A stretch of 64,000 bases of DNA from Granulosicoccaceae bacterium (lineage in GTDB: Bacteria; Pseudomonadota; Gammaproteobacteria; Granulosicoccales; Granulosicoccaceae), in the NCBI GenBank assembly GCA_020629835.1, contig JAHDCO010000015.1, forward strand, positions 1 to 64,000, in the 5' to 3' direction. The notes beneath the pieces are model-generated. The model saw only the letters and a program-made list of their open reading frames with translations. It ran no database searches and was not told where the DNA came from. This document shows positions 31,973 through 49,521 of the stretch, one piece after another. Position numbers and translations under genes: made by a program. The first letter of the stretch is position 1, and each line of letters opens with the position of its first letter.

Positions 31973-32136
31973 CATCACAAATACCCCATGCCTGTCTTAT
32001 GCGGCCGCGAACTGTGATCACGTTCTTCTTAACTTCACGAACAGCTATCATCATAGAGCAACAACTATTCGATACAGTCCCGGCATAACTCAAGAGCTTC
32101 TCTCCTATGCATCTAGTGGGTGTTTCAATTTCCACC

Positions 32137-34125
32137 ATGCCCCAGCTTAGAACGCTGGTGTTGTGCCTAAGCATGACTACGGCATTGACCGCCTGCAGTG
32201 GATCGAGCAGTGGCGGAGGTGACGGCGTTACTAACGCAGGCGACTCCAATCAGCCGACCACCGACCCGGTTAACCCTGATGCACCCGACGTCAACCCAGG
32301 AGATGAGCCCACGGCGGGGCCGCCTGTTAATCCCAATCCAGAGCCGCCGGCGGCGTTGGCGCCGTTACCCAACCCCGCTACCTCCGAAAGCCCGGGTTTT
32401 GATGACGAACCGAGCAACATTAATCGCCCGGTTACCGCCATTACGCGTTATTTTTTGGTTGAAAACCCCGCTCGCCGAATTGAGCCGCAGCCGACTTTGG
32501 GTATCACAGAAACCGACTTTGCCACCGGTATGCCACCGGCCGTTATAACGGCAGAGAACGGATTCGACACCAGCACCAATTCCGCTCCGTACTTTGACGG
32601 TTTAACCAATCAGGAAATTGATGCGGGCCAGGTACTTAATGTGCTGTACAAACCTGTGGATGACGACGGCGGTTTACCAGGCATGTTTCCAAATGAACTG
32701 CCCGAAAGCGCTACGTTCACCGATAACTTTGATGGTACAAAAACCTTTTCATGGATGCCGCTGCAAGGCGATATCGGGATCACGCCATTCACAGTGACTG
32801 CTGTGGACGGCGATGTCCCATCTTACCGAGCAGAGCAAACCATATTAATCAAGGTTAACGCTCCTGCAGACCCGTCCACCATTCCTAACTTCCCACCGGT
32901 GGTAAACGAAGTGCGCGAGCACACGGTTCGTGTGGGTGACCCGGTGTTACTGGAGCTTAAAGGTTCAGATCGCAACAGCACCTACCCCAGTGTGGAGGTG
33001 TTAACGCCGCCACCGGGTGCCACCGTTCTTCCACACTACATCTTTGAAGAGATCACCGTGCTGCGATTCATACCGGAAACACCCGGAGTAATTAATATTG
33101 ACGTATTGGCTCGCGATGCCGATGATCCCAACCTTACTGGCACACGCACAATCTCTGTAACCGCTGAACCCAAAGAAGCCTTCGCCCTGCCCGGCGAGCG
33201 CTTACGTGCCTTAGCCGGTGAGCGCGGGTTTCGGCTTGGTTTTGCCGCTGTACAAGAATTTTACTACCGACCCGACGGTGCATTGTATTCAGACTTAGCC
33301 GGCCTGGAGTTCAATATTGTCAGTGCAGAGAACTCCATGAAATGGGATTACATTAACCCAGAACCCGGCACCTTTCGCTGGGCTGATGCTGACAACTTGA
33401 TTGCGTTTGCCAAACACTACAACCATATTGTGCATGGTCATCCGATGATTTGGCATCGGCAATTACCCATCTGGATTCGTGAAGCGCCTGAAGCCTCGTT
33501 GGAAATGCACATGCGAGAGTTCATCGACCGCCTGGCCGTTCGTTACGGAGACGATGTTGCCATCTGGGATGTGATCAATGAACCGATTGCAGACGAAGGC
33601 GGTTTTCGCCGCTCGATCTGGTACAACGCAATGGGTGAAGATTACATCGATATTGCCTTTCGTCAGGCACGAGACAGCGACCCTGACGGCATACTGCTGC
33701 TAAATGAATACGATATTGCCTGGGATACACCAAAAACCGAAACACTGTTCCCGCTGTTGGATTCACTATTACTAAAAAGCACACCCATCGATGGCGTAGG
33801 CTTTCAGCTTCATATCGATGCGAACTTCGATAAATTCGATGAAGTTGAGGCTAACTTTCAAAAAGTGGCCGATCTAGGCTTGGACATCTACGTAACTGAA
33901 TTAGACGTTGCCATTACCGCAGGTGTTGCTACAGAAGAAGATCAAGCAACAGTCTATGCACGAATACTGGACATTTGTTTGAACCAGCCTCGTTGTAAAG
34001 CCTTACAGATCTGGGGATTCACGGATCAGTATTCATGGCGACGCGATCAGAACCCTCTGGTTTTTGATAGCGCGTACAAGCCAAAGCCTGCCTATTTTGC
34101 TTTACAGGAACGGCTTGCTCAGTGA
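32137..34125 (+). CDS. GH10 endo-1,4-beta-xylanase lipoprotein
   Basis: A 662-residue lipoprotein with lipobox LTAC (acylated Cys about 20), so surface or outer-membrane anchored. A Gly/Ser then Pro/Asp/Asn-rich linker (about 21-90) is followed by a non-assigned segment, two Ig/cadherin-like domains (about 150-345) and a GH10 domain (about 350-662). The acid/base is Glu482 in WDVINEPIAD and the nucleophile Glu588 in VTELDVAI. The two Ig-like domains and the junction ALPGERLR match the other GH10 protein at 19-22 kb, so the pair shares a common core. An ATG at 32107 would add 10 residues. It faces the same direction as the CBM9 lipoprotein downstream. Confidence 0.94.
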   Translation: MPQLRTLVLCLSMTTALTACSGSSSGGGDGVTNAGDSNQPTTDPVNPDAPDVNPGDEPTAGPPVNPNPEPPAALAPLPNPATSESPGFDDEPSNINRPVTAITRYFLVENPARRIEPQPTLGITETDFATGMPPAVITAENGFDTSTNSAPYFDGLTNQEIDAGQVLNVLYKPVDDDGGLPGMFPNELPESATFTDNFDGTKTFSWMPLQGDIGITPFTVTAVDGDVPSYRAEQTILIKVNAPADPSTIPNFPPVVNEVREHTVRVGDPVLLELKGSDRNSTYPSVEVLTPPPGATVLPHYIFEEITVLRFIPETPGVINIDVLARDADDPNLTGTRTISVTAEPKEAFALPGERLRALAGERGFRLGFAAVQEFYYRPDGALYSDLAGLEFNIVSAENSMKWDYINPEPGTFRWADADNLIAFAKHYNHIVHGHPMIWHRQLPIWIREAPEASLEMHMREFIDRLAVRYGDDVAIWDVINEPIADEGGFRRSIWYNAMGEDYIDIAFRQARDSDPDGILLLNEYDIAWDTPKTETLFPLLDSLLLKSTPIDGVGFQLHIDANFDKFDEVEANFQKVADLGLDIYVTELDVAITAGVATEEDQATVYARILDICLNQPRCKALQIWGFTDQYSWRRDQNPLVFDSAYKPKPAYFALQERLAQ

Positions 34126-34724: not shown

Positions 34725-34888
34725 AACATACTCACTTTAAAATACAGTACTGATAATCAAATAATTCGCAGCCAATATTACCGATAAAGCTCGGTAGCAT
34801 TGCAACACCAAGCCAGGTGGTTACCCATCACACTTCAATCATCCGCTGACACCGTTACGGTTCAGCAACCACGATGAAGGAACTGTGC

Positions 34889-36526
34889 ATGTACGCTCAC
34901 CCATCCCGTTTAACACCCCTTGCTCTGGCTCTAGCCTCACTGATGAGCATCACCGCCTGTTCATCCGGAGAAAGTAACAGCACCCCAAGACTGGATGACC
35001 CGGCAATCACGCCCACGTCCGCTGTACGGTTAACGGTTGAACTGCCGCCGCGAATGCAAAACCTTGACGCTACGTTGGAAGTCATCGTCACGGCCGCTGG
35101 CGAGAGCGTGTTAATGAACGGAGCTCAAGACAGCTACAGTGCAGAGCTTAGCCTACCGTCGGACCGAAGTTTCCCTTTATTTGTCCGAGTACAACGTGCC
35201 GATGATGATCTGATCGTGGCGTCTGCCCAGGCAAACATCAGCACAGACACAAGCATCGTGCCATTCACCTTGCCCCCACAGTTATTCAGTACAGACTTTG
35301 ACTCAGACGGTGACGGTTTTACCAATATTGTCGAACTGGAGCGAGGCAGTGAACCGCGTGGTTTAAGCGAAGACTTTGATGGCGATGGTATCGCCAACGA
35401 AACCGACTTAGACGATGACAACGATGGGGTATTTGATGTTAACGACGCGTTTCCATTGAATGGAGCGGAATCGTTGGACAGCGACGGCGACGGCATTGGC
35501 GATAATCAGGACAGAGACGATGACAACGATTTGATTCTGGATGTTGACGATAACTTTCCACTCGATCCCAATGAATCGCTGGATTTGGATTTGGACGGAC
35601 TGGGTAACTCCGTAGACGAAGACGATGATGGCGACGGCACCATAGACCTGGAAGACCCACAACCTAATAACCCCAACATCACTGGTAACGAAGACAGTGA
35701 TGGTGATGGCGTCAGAGATTTAGAAGACGCATTCCCGTATGACCCCGCCGAGAGTAATGACGTTGATGGCGATGGCATTGGCGACAACGCCGATAATGAC
35801 AACGATAACAATGGCATCCCCGATGACCAGGATAATTCAGTGGTCAACATCCCGTTCTCTGCGGTATCACCCACAATAGACGGCGCTTACAGCTGGTGGG
35901 AATGGTCGGCAGCAACCAGTGCCGATAGTCGTGGTAATCGCCTGTATATCGATCATCTGTTAATCGATAACCTTGGCATTGAAGACGATCAATACAATTA
36001 CAACTACAGCCGCTGGCGCGCTTTGCACGACGGTGAATATCTGTACGTGCTGTTCATCATCGATAACGAAAACTTACCCGAACGTTGGAGTGACTCGGTG
36101 AACCCATGGGATGATGATTCGGTAGAGCTGTATTTTGACGTAGGCGCTGAATCAGCAACAACCTATGACAGCAACGACTACCAACGATTGTTCCGTTATC
36201 AGGACGATGCGGATGATAATCAAACCGATGGTTTCTACAGCGCAAGCGGCATGGTGTCCAACTACTGTTCCAGCCGTACCATGGCCAGGCAATGGTCTCA
36301 CTACGCCTACTATGAAGTGCGCGTCTTACTGTCATCCATAGGCTTGCAGGAAGGTGTGCCGTTCAAGATGGACGTGATGTACAACGATGACGACACCGCA
36401 GGTGAACGAGACTCCAAATGGGCCTGGTTTTCACCATCGGGTGTGGACAACGCCTGGCAGAACCCCAGTACCTTCGGGACCGCAATCCTGTCAACCAATC
36501 GCCCGGTTGTTGGTGGTGGGGATTAG
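34889..36526 (+). CDS. CBM9 lipoprotein with thrombospondin type-3 repeats
   Basis: A 545-residue lipoprotein with lipobox SITAC. A first domain of about 120 residues (beta-rich, resembling a carboxypeptidase-regulatory-like fold) comes first. Then at least six calcium-binding thrombospondin type-3 repeats (about 135-325) follow, each of the DSDGDGxxD type and several ending DAFPLDP. A C-terminal CBM9-like module (about 335-545) begins TIDGAYSWWEWSAA. It has WRALHDGEYLYVLFIIDN and DDDSVELYFDVG, which match CBM9. CBM9 modules bind xylan or cellulose ends. No catalytic domain is present. The ATG at 34889 has AAGGA upstream; 34874 is an alternative. Confidence 0.88.
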   Translation: MYAHPSRLTPLALALASLMSITACSSGESNSTPRLDDPAITPTSAVRLTVELPPRMQNLDATLEVIVTAAGESVLMNGAQDSYSAELSLPSDRSFPLFVRVQRADDDLIVASAQANISTDTSIVPFTLPPQLFSTDFDSDGDGFTNIVELERGSEPRGLSEDFDGDGIANETDLDDDNDGVFDVNDAFPLNGAESLDSDGDGIGDNQDRDDDNDLILDVDDNFPLDPNESLDLDLDGLGNSVDEDDDGDGTIDLEDPQPNNPNITGNEDSDGDGVRDLEDAFPYDPAESNDVDGDGIGDNADNDNDNNGIPDDQDNSVVNIPFSAVSPTIDGAYSWWEWSAATSADSRGNRLYIDHLLIDNLGIEDDQYNYNYSRWRALHDGEYLYVLFIIDNENLPERWSDSVNPWDDDSVELYFDVGAESATTYDSNDYQRLFRYQDDADDNQTDGFYSASGMVSNYCSSRTMARQWSHYAYYEVRVLLSSIGLQEGVPFKMDVMYNDDDTAGERDSKWAWFSPSGVDNAWQNPSTFGTAILSTNRPVVGGGD

Positions 36527-36641: not shown

Positions 36642-36983
36642 TTACTCGAGAAAAAAACCATCAACAAAATAGCGGCCGCCTTTAACGGCGACTGTGGTGA
36701 CTGCCAACACCTGATCTTCGGTTCGATCATAGTGTTGATGCCACAGTACGGTGAATGATTTTTCTTTGCGGAAGATGGTGACCACATCGCGTTGGGCGGG
36801 CCGCCCCCAGCGCGCTTCCTGAAGGTCGCAGCGTTGCAGGAACGCCTCGGATGTGAGTGTTGACTTTAAGTCAACGGAGAAATGGCAACTGTGTAGCGCG
36901 TAGTCCCGCTGGTCAACGCCAGACATCACGTCGTCCATCATGGGTTCCACTACGTGCAACACCGCTTGATCGTCTAATTCCAT
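36642..36983 (-). CDS. Hypothetical protein, possibly NTF2/SnoaL-like
   Basis: A 113-residue cytoplasmic protein without signal or membrane segment. The pattern of an N-terminal helix with acidic residues, then a mixed beta-sheet with VLWHQHYDRTEDQVLAVTTVAVKGGRYFVDGFFL near the end, resembles the NTF2-like fold, where a curved sheet encloses a pocket. The similarity is one of shape only and no family motif is decisive. The ATG at 36983 or 36992 could be the start. The stop is 6 bases from the 8-bp tandem repeat. It lies downstream of the RMF-like gene on the same strand, separated by a strong hairpin. Confidence 0.5.
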   Translation of the reverse strand: MELDDQAVLHVVEPMMDDVMSGVDQRDYALHSCHFSVDLKSTLTSEAFLQRCDLQEARWGRPAQRDVVTIFRKEKSFTVLWHQHYDRTEDQVLAVTTVAVKGGRYFVDGFFLE

Positions 36984-37020
36984 GCAGCTCATTCTGCAAT
37001 TCTACAAGGAACGAGGATTT

Positions 37021-37521: not shown

Positions 37522-39234
37522 CTATGACCACCAGGCGTCGGCCGCTGGCTGCAAATCGTTCGCACGGAACCGCGCTTTCTGGTTAGACGGAGCCAGTTCT
37601 TCAGCGTAGAAAAACTCGGGTAAATCATCATCTTTTTGCGTAAAACCCGCATCACGATTGAACTGGTTCTCAAGTTCCAGGGTTTCCCGACCCAGAGCCG
37701 GAAAGAAGTCTGCCGGTAACTCTGCGTTAACCGCATCCTTCAATGCCTGCAGGATGAAATCCTGCTTTACCAACGTGACCGAACGACCAAATATGCAAAA
37801 CCCTAACGAGTCTGTGGTGGCACACAACGCCTGTAAATCCAGGCTGGCCTCAACCAGCTCTTCGGCAGGCTTACCTTTACTGTCGTACTGCGGCAGATTG
37901 CCGGCAGTGTGGTCAGCACCTTGTGCCGTCATTTGCATGCTGATGCCGGTCACTTCAATAACGCGTGGGTCATAAGCACTGATGGCTTGCCCTTTGATTA
38001 CCGGTATGCGGGCAACCGACAAGCCTTCACCAACACGTTGCGTGCCCTGCGCGTAAAAACGACCCTCTTCACTGCCACTGCGCATTTCGTCCATAACGGT
38101 ATGCATGTAGGCAGCATCACCAAAATCACCTTTGCCCGCTTCCATTAAGACGCCAATCATGGCACCCAACTCGATGGTGTCGACACCTAGATCGTTCGCT
38201 TGCCAGTTCAGTGCGGCAAGATCATCAGGTTCTTCTAATCCGCAGTTGGTACCCATTAGACCGATGGTTTCATACTCCACCGGCGAGACGACTTCATTGC
38301 CGTCTTTATCTGCGTACACGTTACTGCACTGGATAATGCACCCGGGCATACACGCATGCGTCGTGTTACCACCGCGCTCAAGGTTTAATTCACGCAGGTA
38401 GTCACCACCTAACTTAAAGCGCTCTTCACCGGATGTATCGGTGGCTTGTCCCTGGCTGAAGTTTTTTACTGGAATTCCGCCCACCGTATTGGTGTAGTCA
38501 CCTACCGCAGCCGTTCCCTGTTCCTGGAATGTGCGAATAGCCGGTTGCTCTTCCAATTGTTTGCGATAACTTTTAACCGCCTGCATCACCTGCTTACGCT
38601 CATGCAACGGAGGCATGCGATCAAGTTCTGCAATGATGGCTTTCACTTTCTTACTGCCCATCACCGCACCAACACCGCCACGTGCGGCCAGACGTGACGG
38701 TCGCAAATCCACATCACTGAACGCAACACCTGCCATTAAGCCCTGGTATTCACCGACCAAACCGCACAGTGCAATGCTGACTTTTTTACCAAACCGTTCA
38801 TGCAGGCGTTCAGCGGTTTTGAAGTTGCCTTCGCCCAAATAATCTGAAGCATCCAGAAATTCAATCTCGCCACCTTTTTTAAGATGGATCATGACCCAGT
38901 CTTCAGACTGACCGGTGAGCGTGAACCCGGCAATTTCCAACTGCCCTAACGCAAACGCAAAGTTACCACCGGCATTGGCTTCTTTGATGCCACCGGTGAG
39001 CGGGCTTTTGCAACCAACGCTTAAACGATTGGCGTTAGAAAAGTTGGTACCAGCCAACGGACCTGCTGAAAAAATTAATGGGTTATCCGGGCCCAAAGGG
39101 TCGACCTTGGCCACGCCCATTGCGTTTAGCGTTTTCGCAATGTGATAACGGCCGGCTTTGACCAGCGCTTCCCCCGCAAGGGTTTCGGTTTCAACTCGGC
39201 GTTGGGCTAAATCGATCGTGTGGTACTGACGCAT
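37522..39234 (-). CDS. Aldehyde:ferredoxin oxidoreductase family (tungsten/molybdopterin enzyme)
   Basis: A 570-residue AOR-family enzyme that oxidises aldehydes to acids, using W/Mo-bis-pterin and a [4Fe-4S] cluster. The cluster cysteines are visible: Cys295, Cys299, Cys303 in HACMPGCIIQC and Cys480 in SLGFCIF. The N-terminal domain has the pterin-contact region AGPLAGTNFSNANRLSVGCKSP, and ARGGVGAVMGSKKVKAI is typical. The C-terminal region is about 40 residues shorter than some archaeal forms. No partner [Fe-S] or FAD subunit is adjacent, although other bacterial AORs have them. It lies 66 bases after glcF on the same strand. Metal and substrate are inferred from family. Confidence 0.9.
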   Translation of the reverse strand: MRQYHTIDLAQRRVETETLAGEALVKAGRYHIAKTLNAMGVAKVDPLGPDNPLIFSAGPLAGTNFSNANRLSVGCKSPLTGGIKEANAGGNFAFALGQLEIAGFTLTGQSEDWVMIHLKKGGEIEFLDASDYLGEGNFKTAERLHERFGKKVSIALCGLVGEYQGLMAGVAFSDVDLRPSRLAARGGVGAVMGSKKVKAIIAELDRMPPLHERKQVMQAVKSYRKQLEEQPAIRTFQEQGTAAVGDYTNTVGGIPVKNFSQGQATDTSGEERFKLGGDYLRELNLERGGNTTHACMPGCIIQCSNVYADKDGNEVVSPVEYETIGLMGTNCGLEEPDDLAALNWQANDLGVDTIELGAMIGVLMEAGKGDFGDAAYMHTVMDEMRSGSEEGRFYAQGTQRVGEGLSVARIPVIKGQAISAYDPRVIEVTGISMQMTAQGADHTAGNLPQYDSKGKPAEELVEASLDLQALCATTDSLGFCIFGRSVTLVKQDFILQALKDAVNAELPADFFPALGRETLELENQFNRDAGFTQKDDDLPEFFYAEELAPSNQKARFRANDLQPAADAWWS

Positions 39235-39300
39235 GGGCTCTATCTCAAGAACAGGCTGATTGCCTTATTCTACACTCCAACCGCCCGCCGGCAGACCCAA

Positions 39301-40533
39301 CTAGCTGGGTTGTTGAAGACCAGCATCCAGCAACTCAATCCAATGAGAAACCGGACGACCGCTGCCTGCCTGCAAATGCAACTGGCAACCTATATTGGCC
39401 GTCACGATGACATCGGGTTCGCTGGCCATAATGTTGTTCACTTTGTTGTCTCGCAACTGATGGCTGATGGTGGGTTGAAACAGCGAGTAGGTACCGGCCG
39501 AACCGCAGCACGTGTGTGCATCATCAAAGCTGGTCAATGTAAACCCGAGTTTGGTTAAGAAGGTCTCGGTTACCTGAGGCAACTTTTGCCCATGTTGCAG
39601 GGTGCACGGTGGGTGAAAGGCGACCCGACCTGCACTTTTTGCCGCATGAGCCAAAGCCGAAACGTCGTCTTCCGCACTGAGCACTTCTACAATGTCTTTC
39701 GCCAGTGCGCTGACTTTAGCGGCTTTTTGCGCATAGTCTTCGTCGTGCTGCAGGAGATGTCCGTAGTCCTTAACCATGACACCGCAACCACTGGCGGTGG
39801 TGATGATCGCTTCCGCACCGGCTTCAATCTCGGGCCACCAGGCATCGATATTCTGTTTTACAAACACCAGCGCGGCGTCTTGCTCATTCAAGTGGTGGTG
39901 CACAGCGCCGCAGCAACCACTGCGTTCAATCGATACCAGGCTAATGCCTAAAGCATTAAGTACACGCGCTGATGCAGTGTTGGTTTGTGGGGTCATGGCC
40001 GCTTGCGCACAACCATCCAATACCAGCATGCGGCGTTCGTGACTGGCGGTTGGCCACTGTCCGGTGGGCAGTGCTACCGGAACACTGGCTTTTATGGGTT
40101 TAGGTAGTAGCGGTCGCACCAAACGACCCAAGGCTAACAAGGGTGCGAGGCGTGCTCGATAGGGTAATACGGTCAATATCGCTTTTCGTTTGAAGCGCTC
40201 TACCGGCGTGCGAGGAACACGTTCTTCAACCAACGCTCGCCCGTGGTCGATCAGCTTGCCGTATTCCACTCCTGACGGACAGGTGGTTTCACAATTACGA
40301 CACGTGAGACAACGGTCTAAATGCGTTTGCGTACTGGCGGTTGGTTCATGCCCCTCCAGCACTTGCTTAACCAAATATATTCGCCCACGCGGGCTGTCTA
40401 ACTCATCGCCCAGCAGATTGTATGTTGGGCAGGTAGCCAGACAAAAACCACAATGCACACACTTGGAGATGACAGCTTCTGCAGCCAACGCGTGAGGGTT
40501 ATTGGCCAGTGCAGAGTCCAGTCGCGTATCCAT
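39301..40533 (-). CDS. glcF: Glycolate oxidase, iron-sulfur subunit
   Basis: A 410-residue subunit of membrane-associated glycolate dehydrogenase, which oxidises glycolate to glyoxylate. Two [4Fe-4S] motifs are at the N terminus: CVHCGFCLATCP (about 25-36) and CLTCRNCETTCP (about 71-82). Two CCG domains follow, with GCCGAVHHH (about 210) and CCGSAGTYS (about 345), that form the heterodisulfide-reductase-like half. The start lies 3 bases after the glcE stop, indicating an operon. Electrons normally go to the quinone pool. The gene downstream on the same strand is the aldehyde oxidoreductase. Confidence 0.95.
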   Translation of the reverse strand: MDTRLDSALANNPHALAAEAVISKCVHCGFCLATCPTYNLLGDELDSPRGRIYLVKQVLEGHEPTASTQTHLDRCLTCRNCETTCPSGVEYGKLIDHGRALVEERVPRTPVERFKRKAILTVLPYRARLAPLLALGRLVRPLLPKPIKASVPVALPTGQWPTASHERRMLVLDGCAQAAMTPQTNTASARVLNALGISLVSIERSGCCGAVHHHLNEQDAALVFVKQNIDAWWPEIEAGAEAIITTASGCGVMVKDYGHLLQHDEDYAQKAAKVSALAKDIVEVLSAEDDVSALAHAAKSAGRVAFHPPCTLQHGQKLPQVTETFLTKLGFTLTSFDDAHTCCGSAGTYSLFQPTISHQLRDNKVNNIMASEPDVIVTANIGCQLHLQAGSGRPVSHWIELLDAGLQQPS

Positions 40534-40536
40534 GAC

Positions 40537-41628
40537 TTACGAATCCAGTTCGGGGTGAAAACGGCCGCGATTACACAGGCGATGAGGGTCGAAGCTGGCC
40601 CTGAGTTCAGATTGTAACCGAGCACTCACCCCATTAATCGGCTGATGGGTTGGTGCGCCGGCAGGGGCCTCGCTGAAACGCGTGGCGTGGCCTTTGGCAC
40701 CTGCAGCTGCTGCAAAACAAACCTCGGCAGAAGCGTTGGTTTTCACCCAGCGTTGTGCACCACCCCAATCGTATAACGTAGCCGCAGGAGTGCCGTCGTC
40801 ATCATTGGGTAGCTCAAGCGTACTTGCGTAGTCAGGCACCGAAAAGCGCCATGTAGGCCGAATATCATCAAAAAACGCGTGGCTCAGATCTCGCACCCCT
40901 GTCCAGGGCCCATCATCGTTAACGCTTTCACCACCAAGTTGCGCCGCGGCCGCTTTAACACCTGCCTCGCTGCCCGCCAATCGAATAAACCGCTGTTCGC
41001 CAATCAACACAGCACCGGTTACGGGTAAGTATTGCCGCGCAAGTTGCACCATCGGTACGGTGTCGTGCGCTGCTTGTTCAAACATTAAGGTCACTGTAGA
41101 TTCGGGCAAAGGCAACACTTTTAAGCTGATGTCCAACAGAACGCCTAAGGTGCCGAACGCCCCAACCTGCACACGCGAAACATCATAACCAGCCACGTTT
41201 TTCATGACCTCTCCACCGAAACTGCAGTCCTCGCCCTTACCGGAAATGATACGCACGCCCAGCGCGTGGTCGCGCACCGAACCCGCGTAGGGACGAGTCG
41301 GTCCTGATAATCCGCACGCTACTGTGCCACCGAGCGTTGCATTCGGGAGCTGGGGAGGATCGAACGGTAGCTGCTGACCGTGTTCATGCAGCGTGCTTAT
41401 AACAGTACTCAACGGGGTTCCGCTGCGTGCGGTCATAACAAGCTCAGTGGGCTCATAGTTGATCACCCCATGATGCTCGGCCACTGAGACAACCGCGGGC
41501 GGTTCGGACACCGCTGGGCGGCAGCCTAAAAACGATTTACTGCCACCGCCGACGATAACGAATGGGTTAGCCCCTGCGACGTACTGTTGCACCGTCTCGA
41601 GTAAGGCAGCGGAGGCATCGTTGGTCAT
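40537..41628 (-). CDS. glcE: Glycolate oxidase, FAD-binding subunit GlcE
   Basis: A 363-residue protein with an N-terminal FAD-binding domain (PCMH type). The motif ANPFVIVGGGSKSFLG is the pyrophosphate-binding loop, and PNATLGGTVACGLSGPTRPYAGSVRDHALGVRII is the region expected in GlcE. The C-terminal part is shorter than in GlcD and ends with a RLCNRGRFHPELD motif (a form of the 'DP.G.fNPGR' ending of this family). It forms a complex with GlcD and GlcF. The gene lies 60 bases after glcD and 3 bases before glcF. Confidence 0.94.
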   Translation of the reverse strand: MTNDASAALLETVQQYVAGANPFVIVGGGSKSFLGCRPAVSEPPAVVSVAEHHGVINYEPTELVMTARSGTPLSTVISTLHEHGQQLPFDPPQLPNATLGGTVACGLSGPTRPYAGSVRDHALGVRIISGKGEDCSFGGEVMKNVAGYDVSRVQVGAFGTLGVLLDISLKVLPLPESTVTLMFEQAAHDTVPMVQLARQYLPVTGAVLIGEQRFIRLAGSEAGVKAAAAQLGGESVNDDGPWTGVRDLSHAFFDDIRPTWRFSVPDYASTLELPNDDDGTPAATLYDWGGAQRWVKTNASAEVCFAAAAGAKGHATRFSEAPAGAPTHQPINGVSARLQSELRASFDPHRLCNRGRFHPELDS

Positions 41629-41688
41629 GGCAAACGTTCTTTTTTAAAGCGATTAGATAACTAAGGTCGGTCCGCACCGAGATGCGAG

Positions 41689-43179
41689 TTAAAAGCGTTC
41701 CAGTTCAGGGTGTGAACATTGGCCATTGTGAACATGCATGGCACCAAACTCTGCGCATCGCTGAAGCGTGGGAATCGCCTTACCAGGGTTCAATAACCCG
41801 GCCGGGTCAAACGCCGCTTTCACTGCATGGAATTGATTTAACGTGTCTGTGTCGAACTGCACACACATCTCATTAATCTTTTCCACACCCACGCCGTGCT
41901 CACCAGTGACGGTTCCGCCTACCTTTACACACAGCTGTAAAATCTCGCTTCCAAGGCGTTCAGTGCGCTCGGTTTCACCGTCTACACTTGCATCGTACAA
42001 AATCAGCGGATGCAGATTGCCGTCACCGGCATGAAATACGTTGGCGATACGCAAGCCGAACTCTTTTGAGAGCTCGTCCATACGACTGAGCACAGTCGAC
42101 AACTCGCGTCGAGGTATGGTGCCGTCGATGCAATAGTAATCCGGAGAAATACGCCCAACCGCAGGAAACGCGGACTTACGTCCTTTCCATAACAACAGAC
42201 GTTCATCTTCAGTTTCCGCAATGTGCAACGCTGTGGCGTGACAGCGGTTAAACACATCGGATACCCGCCCTATTTGTGCGTTGACCTCAGCCTCAGTACC
42301 GTCTAACTCACACAACAAAACCGCTGCTGCATCGGTTGGGTAGCCGCAGCCGGCAAAATCTTCTGCTGCAACAATGGCTGGGCTGTCCATCAGTTCAAGC
42401 CCGGCTGGAATAATGCCTTCGGCAATAACGCTACCTACCGCATCACCGGCGGCTGAAACACTGTTGAACGCCGCCATAACCAGCTTGGCAACAGGCGGTA
42501 CCGGCAACAGCTTTACGGTTACTTCAACGGTTACCGCCAGCATGCCTTCTGACCCCGTCAGCAACGCCATCAGATCATAGCCAGCGTCATCGCACCCCAT
42601 GGCGCCGATTGTCAATAACTCTCCGTCTACTGTTACTACATCAATAGATAGAACGTTGTGTACGGTCAGCCCGTACTTTAAGCAGTGCACGCCGCCTGAA
42701 TTTTCCGCCACATTGCCGCCAATGGTGCAGGCGATCTGAGACGACGGGTCGGGGGCGTAATACAGCCCATGGGGCCTGGCAACATTTGAAATCGCAAGAT
42801 TGGTGACACCAGGCTGCACGCGTGCGTATCCGTGCTCTGCATTGAGCTCAAGAATTTTGTTGAATTTAGCAAGCCCGAGCAGAATGCCGTCCTCGTGCGG
42901 CAGGGCACCACCAGAAAGTCCGGTTCCGGCGCCACGTGCAACCACTGGAACCTGCCGGGACGATGCCCAGCGCATAACGGCTTGAACCTCTTCAATAGTG
43001 GCAGGCAATACCACCGAAAGCGGCGCTCGTTTAAAAACGGTTAAGCCATCCGACTCATAAGGACGCAAATCCTCGTCGGTGTGCAGCACCTGCCCTTTCG
43101 GGACTAAAGCGCTTAATTCGCTGGAATACAGGGCGCGTTTATCGGCCCGTGAAAGTGCTGTTTTTGCGTCGGCAACCAT
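41689..43179 (-). CDS. glcD: Glycolate oxidase, catalytic FAD subunit GlcD
   Basis: A 496-residue FAD-linked dehydrogenase. The FAD site is VPVVARGAGTGLSGGALP (about 75-92) and GGNVAENSGGVHCLKYG (about 153-169). The C-terminal catalytic region has NVFHAGDGNLHPLILYD (about 375-391) and TGEHGVGVEKI (about 417-427), with the conserved histidines of the lactate/glycolate dehydrogenase family. The ending FDPAGLLNPGKAIP is typical. It is first in glcDEF; the 214-base divergent region up to pyk holds the pyk promoter, while no clear promoter is seen for glcD. No glycolate-responsive regulator (GlcC) is adjacent. Confidence 0.95.
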   Translation of the reverse strand: MVADAKTALSRADKRALYSSELSALVPKGQVLHTDEDLRPYESDGLTVFKRAPLSVVLPATIEEVQAVMRWASSRQVPVVARGAGTGLSGGALPHEDGILLGLAKFNKILELNAEHGYARVQPGVTNLAISNVARPHGLYYAPDPSSQIACTIGGNVAENSGGVHCLKYGLTVHNVLSIDVVTVDGELLTIGAMGCDDAGYDLMALLTGSEGMLAVTVEVTVKLLPVPPVAKLVMAAFNSVSAAGDAVGSVIAEGIIPAGLELMDSPAIVAAEDFAGCGYPTDAAAVLLCELDGTEAEVNAQIGRVSDVFNRCHATALHIAETEDERLLLWKGRKSAFPAVGRISPDYYCIDGTIPRRELSTVLSRMDELSKEFGLRIANVFHAGDGNLHPLILYDASVDGETERTERLGSEILQLCVKVGGTVTGEHGVGVEKINEMCVQFDTDTLNQFHAVKAAFDPAGLLNPGKAIPTLQRCAEFGAMHVHNGQCSHPELERF

Positions 43180-43331: not shown

Positions 43332-43365
43332 TATAATGCGGAGCGATTTACGTAGTTTCACTACA
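43332..43365 (+). promoter_or_regulatory. pyk promoter -10 with a HexR box
   Basis: A perfect TATAAT is at 43332-43337, with only a weak -35 upstream. Just after it, CGTAGTTTCACTACA (43351-43365), read on the other strand as TGTAGTGAAACTACG, matches the HexR consensus TGTARTWWWAYTACA except for C in the third W position and the last base. The site lies 28 bases before the pyk ATG, at about +7 to +21, where a bound repressor would block elongation or initiation. HexR is encoded at 46.3 kb. Confidence 0.75.
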
Positions 43366-46306: not shown

Positions 46307-47149
46307 TTAGTTCTTCGATTTAACAAAGCGCGAGTCAATGGCACGACGCGCTTTGGCCAACTGCTGCAGCATGTCTTCACCACCTTTTACTGCAATACCC
46401 ACGGCCAGTATGTCGAGAATCATCATCTGTCCGATCCGGGATTTAACTGGCGAAAAAATATCGCTGTCTTCGATTAGATCCACCGATAAATGAACATCGC
46501 TGCTCTCTGCAAGCGGGGATTTAGTTGCGGTAACTGAGATTACTTTGGCGCGCGCTTTTTTTGCGATATCCACTGCGCTCAGAATGTCGCTACTTCGGCC
46601 GGAATGCGATATGGCCACCATTAACGTTTTTTCGTTATACAGCGCAGCAGCAGACTGTTGAATGTGCGGATCGTTATACGCAATGGCAGGTTTTCCTAAT
46701 CGGAAAAATTTTAGCTGCGCATCTTCGGCCACGATGGCAGAGCCACCCGAGCCATGAAATTCAATTCGCTCGCATTCATCAAATAACCGGATGGCGTCAT
46801 ACAACGCCTGGTCGTTAAATTGATTTTTCATTTGCATCATGGACGCAATGGTGCCGTCAATGATCTTTGATGCAAGCTCTTTACCGGTGTCCTCCGCGGT
46901 GACGTCCTTGTAGAAGAAGGTGCCCCGACTGGCGAGGTCTTGCGCCAGCCGCAACTTAAACTGCTGGAAACCAACACAATCTAAAGCACGACAAAATCGT
47001 ATGACCGTGGGCTCACTAACCGAAGATTTCGCAGCAATAGCTTGTATGGAGGACTGCACGCTGCCATCGGGATCCTCAAGGATCACATCGGCCACTTTTT
47101 GTTCTGATTTTCTCAACCCATCGCGAGCCGAGCGAATTTTAGCGAGCAT
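46307..47149 (-). CDS. hexR: HexR, RpiR-family regulator of central carbon metabolism
   Basis: A 280-residue regulator with an N-terminal RpiR-type helix-turn-helix (KVADVILEDPDGSVQSSIQAIAAKSSVSEPTVIRFCRALDCVGFQQFKLRL, about 20-72 in pieces) and a C-terminal SIS domain (about 125-265) with FHGSGGSAIVAEDAQ and AISHSGRSSDIL. HexR represses or activates Entner-Doudoroff and related genes and is released by KDPG. HexR-like boxes occur before pyk and zwf here. The ATG at 47149 fits the family; a GTG four codons upstream is less likely. It lies 120 bases downstream of pgl on the same strand, where CGGTATACTGAATTACCG (a -10-like TATACT) may give it its own promoter. Confidence 0.93.
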   Translation of the reverse strand: MLAKIRSARDGLRKSEQKVADVILEDPDGSVQSSIQAIAAKSSVSEPTVIRFCRALDCVGFQQFKLRLAQDLASRGTFFYKDVTAEDTGKELASKIIDGTIASMMQMKNQFNDQALYDAIRLFDECERIEFHGSGGSAIVAEDAQLKFFRLGKPAIAYNDPHIQQSAAALYNEKTLMVAISHSGRSSDILSAVDIAKKARAKVISVTATKSPLAESSDVHLSVDLIEDSDIFSPVKSRIGQMMILDILAVGIAVKGGEDMLQQLAKARRAIDSRFVKSKN

Positions 47150-47269
47150 TCGGGTCCACACAGTTCCCCAATCGGTAATTCAGTATACCGTGCCCCAAGC
47201 TACCGGGCAGCAGTAAAACACCGCTGGAGCGATGCGTCAGCTACCACACCGCCCGTTTGGACACGCCCG

Positions 47270-49506: not shown

Positions 49507-49521
49507 CGTAATTTTACTACA
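49507..49521. promoter_or_regulatory. HexR box upstream of zwf
   Basis: CGTAATTTTACTACA (on the minus strand TGTAGTAAAATTACG) matches the HexR consensus TGTARTWWWAYTACA at 14 of 15 positions. It lies 41 bases before the zwf ATG, within the 217-base divergent region shared with edd. A half-site TGTAGTAA occurs at about 49586 nearer edd, but its other half does not match. Confidence 0.78.

Follow-up and report, generated by a model that had tools for sequence, protein, structure and literature searches.

A probable solo tungsten oxidoreductase and the glcDEF-AOR block

According to a 2026 classification (PMC13328260), Class I enzymes account for 65% of the WOR family and consist of the large subunit only, with ferredoxin as electron acceptor. 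Described members are the aldehyde oxidoreductase (AOR) of P. furiosus (1aor), BmWOR of Brevibacillus massiliensis and CsWOR87 of Cetobacterium, each being a single large subunit with AFOR_N and AFOR_C domains and no small-subunit gene. In the Class III enzyme AorABC of Aromatoleum aromaticum (8c0z), the large subunit is joined by the polyferredoxin AorA and the FAD subunit AorC. P. furiosus GAPOR and Caldicellulosiruptor GOR belong to the same superfamily, GOR having a small subunit. It is important to note that aldehyde-oxidising AORs share a conserved second shell, consisting of the P. furiosus residues Thr243, Glu313, Tyr427 and His448 (PMC12096430, PMC13328260). For glycolate oxidase, E. 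coli GlcDEF, encoded in the order glcD-glcE-glcF, serves as the comparison. In that gene cluster, glcF is followed by glcG, glcB and glcA.

The stretch analysed here, called the window, comprises 64,000 nucleotides from a marine Granulosicoccaceae bacterium. On its minus strand glcD (41689..43179), glcE (40537..41628) and glcF (39301..40533) are followed, after a gap of 66 bp (39235..39300), by an AOR gene (37522..39234), exactly as an earlier sequence-only reading had described. The glc gene order is that of E. coli, but the AOR gene takes the place after glcF, and none of glcG, glcB and glcA comes next. In profile searches, the iron-sulfur subunit GlcF (NF008434, 628 bits versus a cut-off of 333) and the FAD-binding subunit GlcE (NF008439, 389 versus 284 bits) exceeded the NCBIfam equivalog cut-offs. 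The adjoining GlcD, the FAD subunit, gave full-length matches that remained below both cut-offs (NF008408, 774 versus 897 bits; TIGR00387, 525 versus 568 bits), which distinguishes it from its E. coli counterpart. A gene for malate synthase G is located on another contig of the genome.

The AOR gene encodes a large subunit of 570 aa, in which both domains score far above the curated cut-offs (AFOR_N, 174 versus 30 bits; AFOR_C, 182 versus 27 bits). An AlphaFold2 model of the AOR, built from 22 proteins of the window and related loci, has a mean pLDDT of 91.8. Its superposition on P. furiosus AOR (Z 46.0, rmsd 2.0 Å over 547 residues; Foldseek TM 0.90) revealed the full-length AOR fold. Fold-search hits ranking below BamB (superantigen-like and ubiquitin folds, Z about 5 or less) were ignored as common resemblances of small domains. 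Identity to the solved AORs is about 27%, and these are longer (about 605 aa); the homologous large subunit of AorABC is 26% identical (Z 38.5) and differs in its cluster spacing.

An alignment to 1aor showed that the four second-shell residues are retained as T241, E322, Y421 and H442, all of which show little or no variation among 22 aligned members. The four cluster cysteines, C295, C299, C303 and C480, are present as the sequence-only reading had stated, and they are invariant in the same set. According to an alignment with canonical AORs, the fourth belongs to the pterin loop DSLGFC (D475-C480, codons at 37795..37812, minus strand), of which D475, G478 and C480 are invariant among relatives. 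Its sequence thus identifies the protein as a true member of the AOR family whose active site residues are intact.

Between 30 and 52 kb of the window we saw no gene for an iron-sulfur (WorS, AorA) or FAD (WorN, AorC) subunit, in agreement with the sequence-only reading and unlike the situation in AorABC or GOR. We rejected the idea that this represents an anomaly: since the largest WOR class, Class I, is solo, an AOR without these subunits is normal. On balance, we consider it likely that the protein is a Class I, ferredoxin-linked aldehyde oxidase with a probably broad substrate range, which stands beside glcDEF by virtue of a lineage-specific gene order. The enzyme would oxidise aldehydes to carboxylic acids at a tungsten (or possibly molybdenum) bis-pterin site and pass the electrons via its single [4Fe-4S] cluster to soluble ferredoxin, in the manner of the other Class I enzymes. 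Broad aldehyde detoxification would be its default role, and its position would reflect an old lineage-specific order pyk / glcDEF / AOR.

The iron-sulfur cluster motif of a proteobacterial subfamily

When comparing the cluster region with that of relatives, it becomes clear that the first three cysteines (C295-M-P-G-C299-I-I-Q-C303, codons at 38326..38352, minus strand) follow the pattern CX3CX3C instead of the canonical CX2CX3C of the Class I WORs named above, a detail that the sequence-only reading had missed. The comparison comprised 76 distinct proteins, 54 close and 22 distant. Each of the 54 relatives with an identity of about 37% or more has CX3CX3C, and the motif extends to a sister clade (L041, L098 and L099) at 37-39% identity. 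All 22 distant AORs (about 30% identity), including the two others encoded in the genome, have CX2CX3C, which is also the spacing in E. coli YdhV (CHSCPIRC). The extra residue, present in 54 of 54 relatives and in none of the 22 distant AORs, thus marks a proteobacterial subfamily. A phylum-wide draw at E 1e-70 for relatives of the AOR returned the own genome only, so that the spread of the subfamily was judged from the other draws. One AOR-bearing record, L020 (CAMCQE010000054.1), is titled Klebsiella pneumoniae, but this title is probably wrong, as the AOR and its neighbours are nearly identical to those of the Gammaproteobacteria metagenome-assembled genome (MAG) L021.

Cluster ligation is known to vary within the family: WOR4 has lost one cysteine, carries Fe3S4 and has no known activity, and WOR5 uses three cysteines and an aspartate (PMC12096430). 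By analogy with the Fe3S4 cluster of WOR4, the loop that is longer by one residue could alter or even abolish the cluster of the AOR. A second subfamily-specific element, A437-Q-G-A-D-H442 (AQGADH), stands where canonical AORs have NRGACH.

The novelty of the protein resides in the cluster motif and the host group rather than in the pairing with glc genes, and the subfamily may equal one of 92 published clades. The enzyme family is known and its pairing with glc genes is a peculiarity of a single bacterial group, but the branch itself is little studied; a literature search retrieved no biochemical characterisation of any subfamily member. The host sets the AOR apart from the Class I WORs named above, since it is proteobacterial, and its genus includes Granulosicoccus antarcticus, which is reported to be obligately aerobic (PMC9238374). 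Abundant symbionts of kelp are found among the Granulosicoccaceae as well (PMC9238374). The subfamily, being solo, altered in its cluster motif and common in this family, represents a reasonable target in the search for oxygen-tolerant tungsten enzymes. One may go further and propose that the CX3CX3C proteins are a distinct solo tungsten branch of largely aerobic marine Proteobacteria whose longer loop holds a [4Fe-4S] cluster adapted to oxygen or to another acceptor, and that Granulosicoccus recruited it to feed glycolate oxidation or to share electrons with it; we regard this extended scenario as improbable.

The same two motifs could be taken to mean that the subfamily does not oxidise aldehydes at all. 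The altered loop and the exchange of NRGACH for AQGADH would then indicate another reaction, as for WOR5/ASOR and BamB, or an inactive protein. Both elements are indeed specific to the subfamily, and departures from aldehyde oxidation exist within the family in WOR4 and BamB (PMC12096430). However, the Thr, Glu, Tyr and His of the second shell are kept, whereas WOR4 and WOR5 lack part of this set, and we think it unlikely that aldehyde oxidation has been abandoned.

Linkage to glycolate oxidase across genomes

The sequence-only reading had suggested a possible two-step route, in which the AOR would oxidise an aldehyde such as glycolaldehyde to glycolate, the substrate of GlcDEF. In its full form, this route would lead on to glyoxylate, with the four genes forming one functional operon in the lineage. 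To judge this proposal, we compared the gene order in 48 Granulosicoccaceae genomes by reading flanks and glcE positions. The subfamily AOR is carried by 38 of them according to the tabulated counts, and in 13 of these 38 glcF lies directly upstream on the same strand, at distances that range from -8 to 138 bp among the loci that were read. The 13 comprise ten genomes of the window's genus and all three of the genus g274; for one of the ten, G399, linkage was deduced from the coordinates of glcE and the AOR gene on one contig. The order described for the window is therefore conserved in part of the family. Three further genomes have glcF close by, namely L035 and L079, where an oppositely oriented H-NS-like gene separates it from the AOR gene, and G370, where a few kb lie between the two. 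No linkage was seen in the remaining 22 of the 38, where glcE mostly lies on another contig and some assemblies are fragmented. Nearly all AOR-carrying genomes of the family possess glcE. Conversely, four near-complete congeners (G388, G409, G410 and G411) have glcE but lack the subfamily AOR.

A tree placed the AORs with tight linkage inside a single clade made up of Granulosicoccus and g274, with unlinked ones interspersed, which is consistent with the pairing having arisen once and then undergone losses. Beyond glcD, pyk and the FecR/LysM genes are conserved as well (L103), so that the retention of gene order does not single out the AOR. Outside the Granulosicoccaceae no linkage to glcF was seen among relatives with enough flank; the AOR gene is solitary in unrelated contexts. 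Relatives that are 60-70% identical and share the catalytic residues adjoin xdhC, H-NS-like, SDR, GGDEF/EAL, SecA or transporter genes, and flanks of sampled relatives, read by eye, contained no partner subunit beside the AOR. The MAG G389 harbours two glcDEF-AOR blocks, L004/L063 (contig C59) and L103 (contig C40); one of them, on a 5.6-kb contig, encodes an AOR 100% identical to that of the window and is perhaps mis-binned. A 116-aa ORF of the window (36642-36992) has no Pfam match, and a close relative of it adjoins the AOR block in L103 (4768-5115).

The 66-bp gap between glcF and the AOR gene is largely diverged among the three closest species, except for the 10-mer GTGTAGAATA (39266-39275), which is identical in all of them and contains TAGAAT, resembling a -10 box. 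A consensus scan of the gap found no promoter with both hexamers and no good -35 element, and in sigma-70 and terminator scans sites were no more frequent than in shuffled sequences. A -10-like decamer lacking a clear -35 element is weak proof of a promoter. The AOR probably has its own promoter in this gap. Together with the opposite-strand H-NS-like insertion in L035 and L079, the conserved GTGTAGAATA is suggestive of separate transcription of the AOR gene. Co-transcription is likely in the lineage of L012/L074 (one genome sequence), where glcF and the start of the AOR gene share 8 bp.

How does the two-step route stand in the light of these data? The common strand and short spacing in the 13 genomes, the overlap in L012/L074 and the presence of malate synthase G, which acts downstream of glyoxylate, speak for it. 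In a class-wide draw, glcE was above cut-off in 8 of 8 genomes with a subfamily AOR compared with 182 of 369 overall, but we did not weigh this co-occurrence, as the genomes represent only four families as independent lineages. Against the route stand the absence of linkage in most subfamily members, the congeners that keep glcDEF without the AOR, the split arrangement in two genomes and the likely promoter of the AOR itself; conservation of the pyk side makes synteny alone an unspecific argument. A literature search for glycolaldehyde with tungsten, or for AOR with glycolate oxidase, found nothing relevant. The sequence-only reading had named a separate promoter and homologues beside other pathways as findings that would contradict it, and both are now seen in part, namely a probable promoter in the gap and relatives beside unrelated genes. 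We rejected the route as the main reading because conservation does not reach beyond one clade and there are signs of separate expression; we consider it unlikely. The pairing with glc genes adds little to the functional assignment of the AOR, for which we retain the Class I, ferredoxin-linked aldehyde oxidase as the likely reading.

Cofactor supply and the Entner-Doudoroff neighbourhood

As a check, the sequence-only reading had suggested looking for tungsten transport and molybdopterin genes elsewhere in the genome. A profile search detected moaA above cut-off, and contig C36 carries a gene for a periplasmic TupA-like binding protein (L095, 9097-9966), with matches to the tungstate-binding protein 3lr1 (1e-56) and to 5my5 (2.8e-71). 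This gene is an orphan, with no permease or ATPase gene beside it on C36, and a modB search of the genome retrieved many related permeases but none above cut-off. Since the tungstate-binding-protein gene lacks an adjacent permease or ATPase, we leave the metal as tungsten or possibly molybdenum.

A pterin cofactor is suggested, independently, by the coupling of the AOR gene to an XdhC-family gene, a family associated with pterin-cofactor maturation. In L011, L071 and L104 the start of the XdhC-family gene and the stop codon of the AOR gene overlap in the sequence GTGA; in L071 the XdhC-family gene was identified from an N-terminal sequence that is nearly identical. The same arrangement occurs in L077, and for an enzyme of the AOR type such an XdhC/CoxI-family gene is unusual company. 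Both other AORs of the genome, L001 (contig C25) and L002 (contig C146), are canonical. They look like Class II enzymes, since each has a WorS-like ferredoxin-like gene upstream; L002 is also accompanied by a ThiS-like gene.

The window further contains genes of the Entner-Doudoroff pathway, with hexR-pgl-zwf-edd-eda at 46.3-52.2 kb. A HexR-like palindrome, CGTAGTTTCACTACA (43351..43365), with one mismatch to TGTARTNNNAYTACA, lies upstream of pyk in the intergenic region shared by glcD and pyk, and similar boxes occur in four related loci. A second one, likewise with one mismatch, is located in the zwf-edd region (49507-49521), and the hexR-like RpiR gene (46307-47161) lies between the two. 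These genes and boxes, and the existence of WORs with a GAPOR or GOR role (PMC13328260), could by analogy suggest that the AOR oxidises glyceraldehyde or glyceraldehyde-3-phosphate in this HexR-controlled neighbourhood (pyk, hexR, pgl, zwf, edd, eda), yet we deem this very improbable: the box at 43351 adjoins pyk, is 172 bp from glcD and is separated from the AOR gene by three genes, relatives outside the clade are not near Entner-Doudoroff genes, and the archaeal GAPOR model matches weakly and only N-terminally (34 bits versus a cut-off of 1300). On the other side of the block, the window encodes a GH10 xylanase-type protein (32107-34125) and a protein that combines a CBM9 domain and thrombospondin type 3 repeats (34874-36526), which suggests polysaccharide use.
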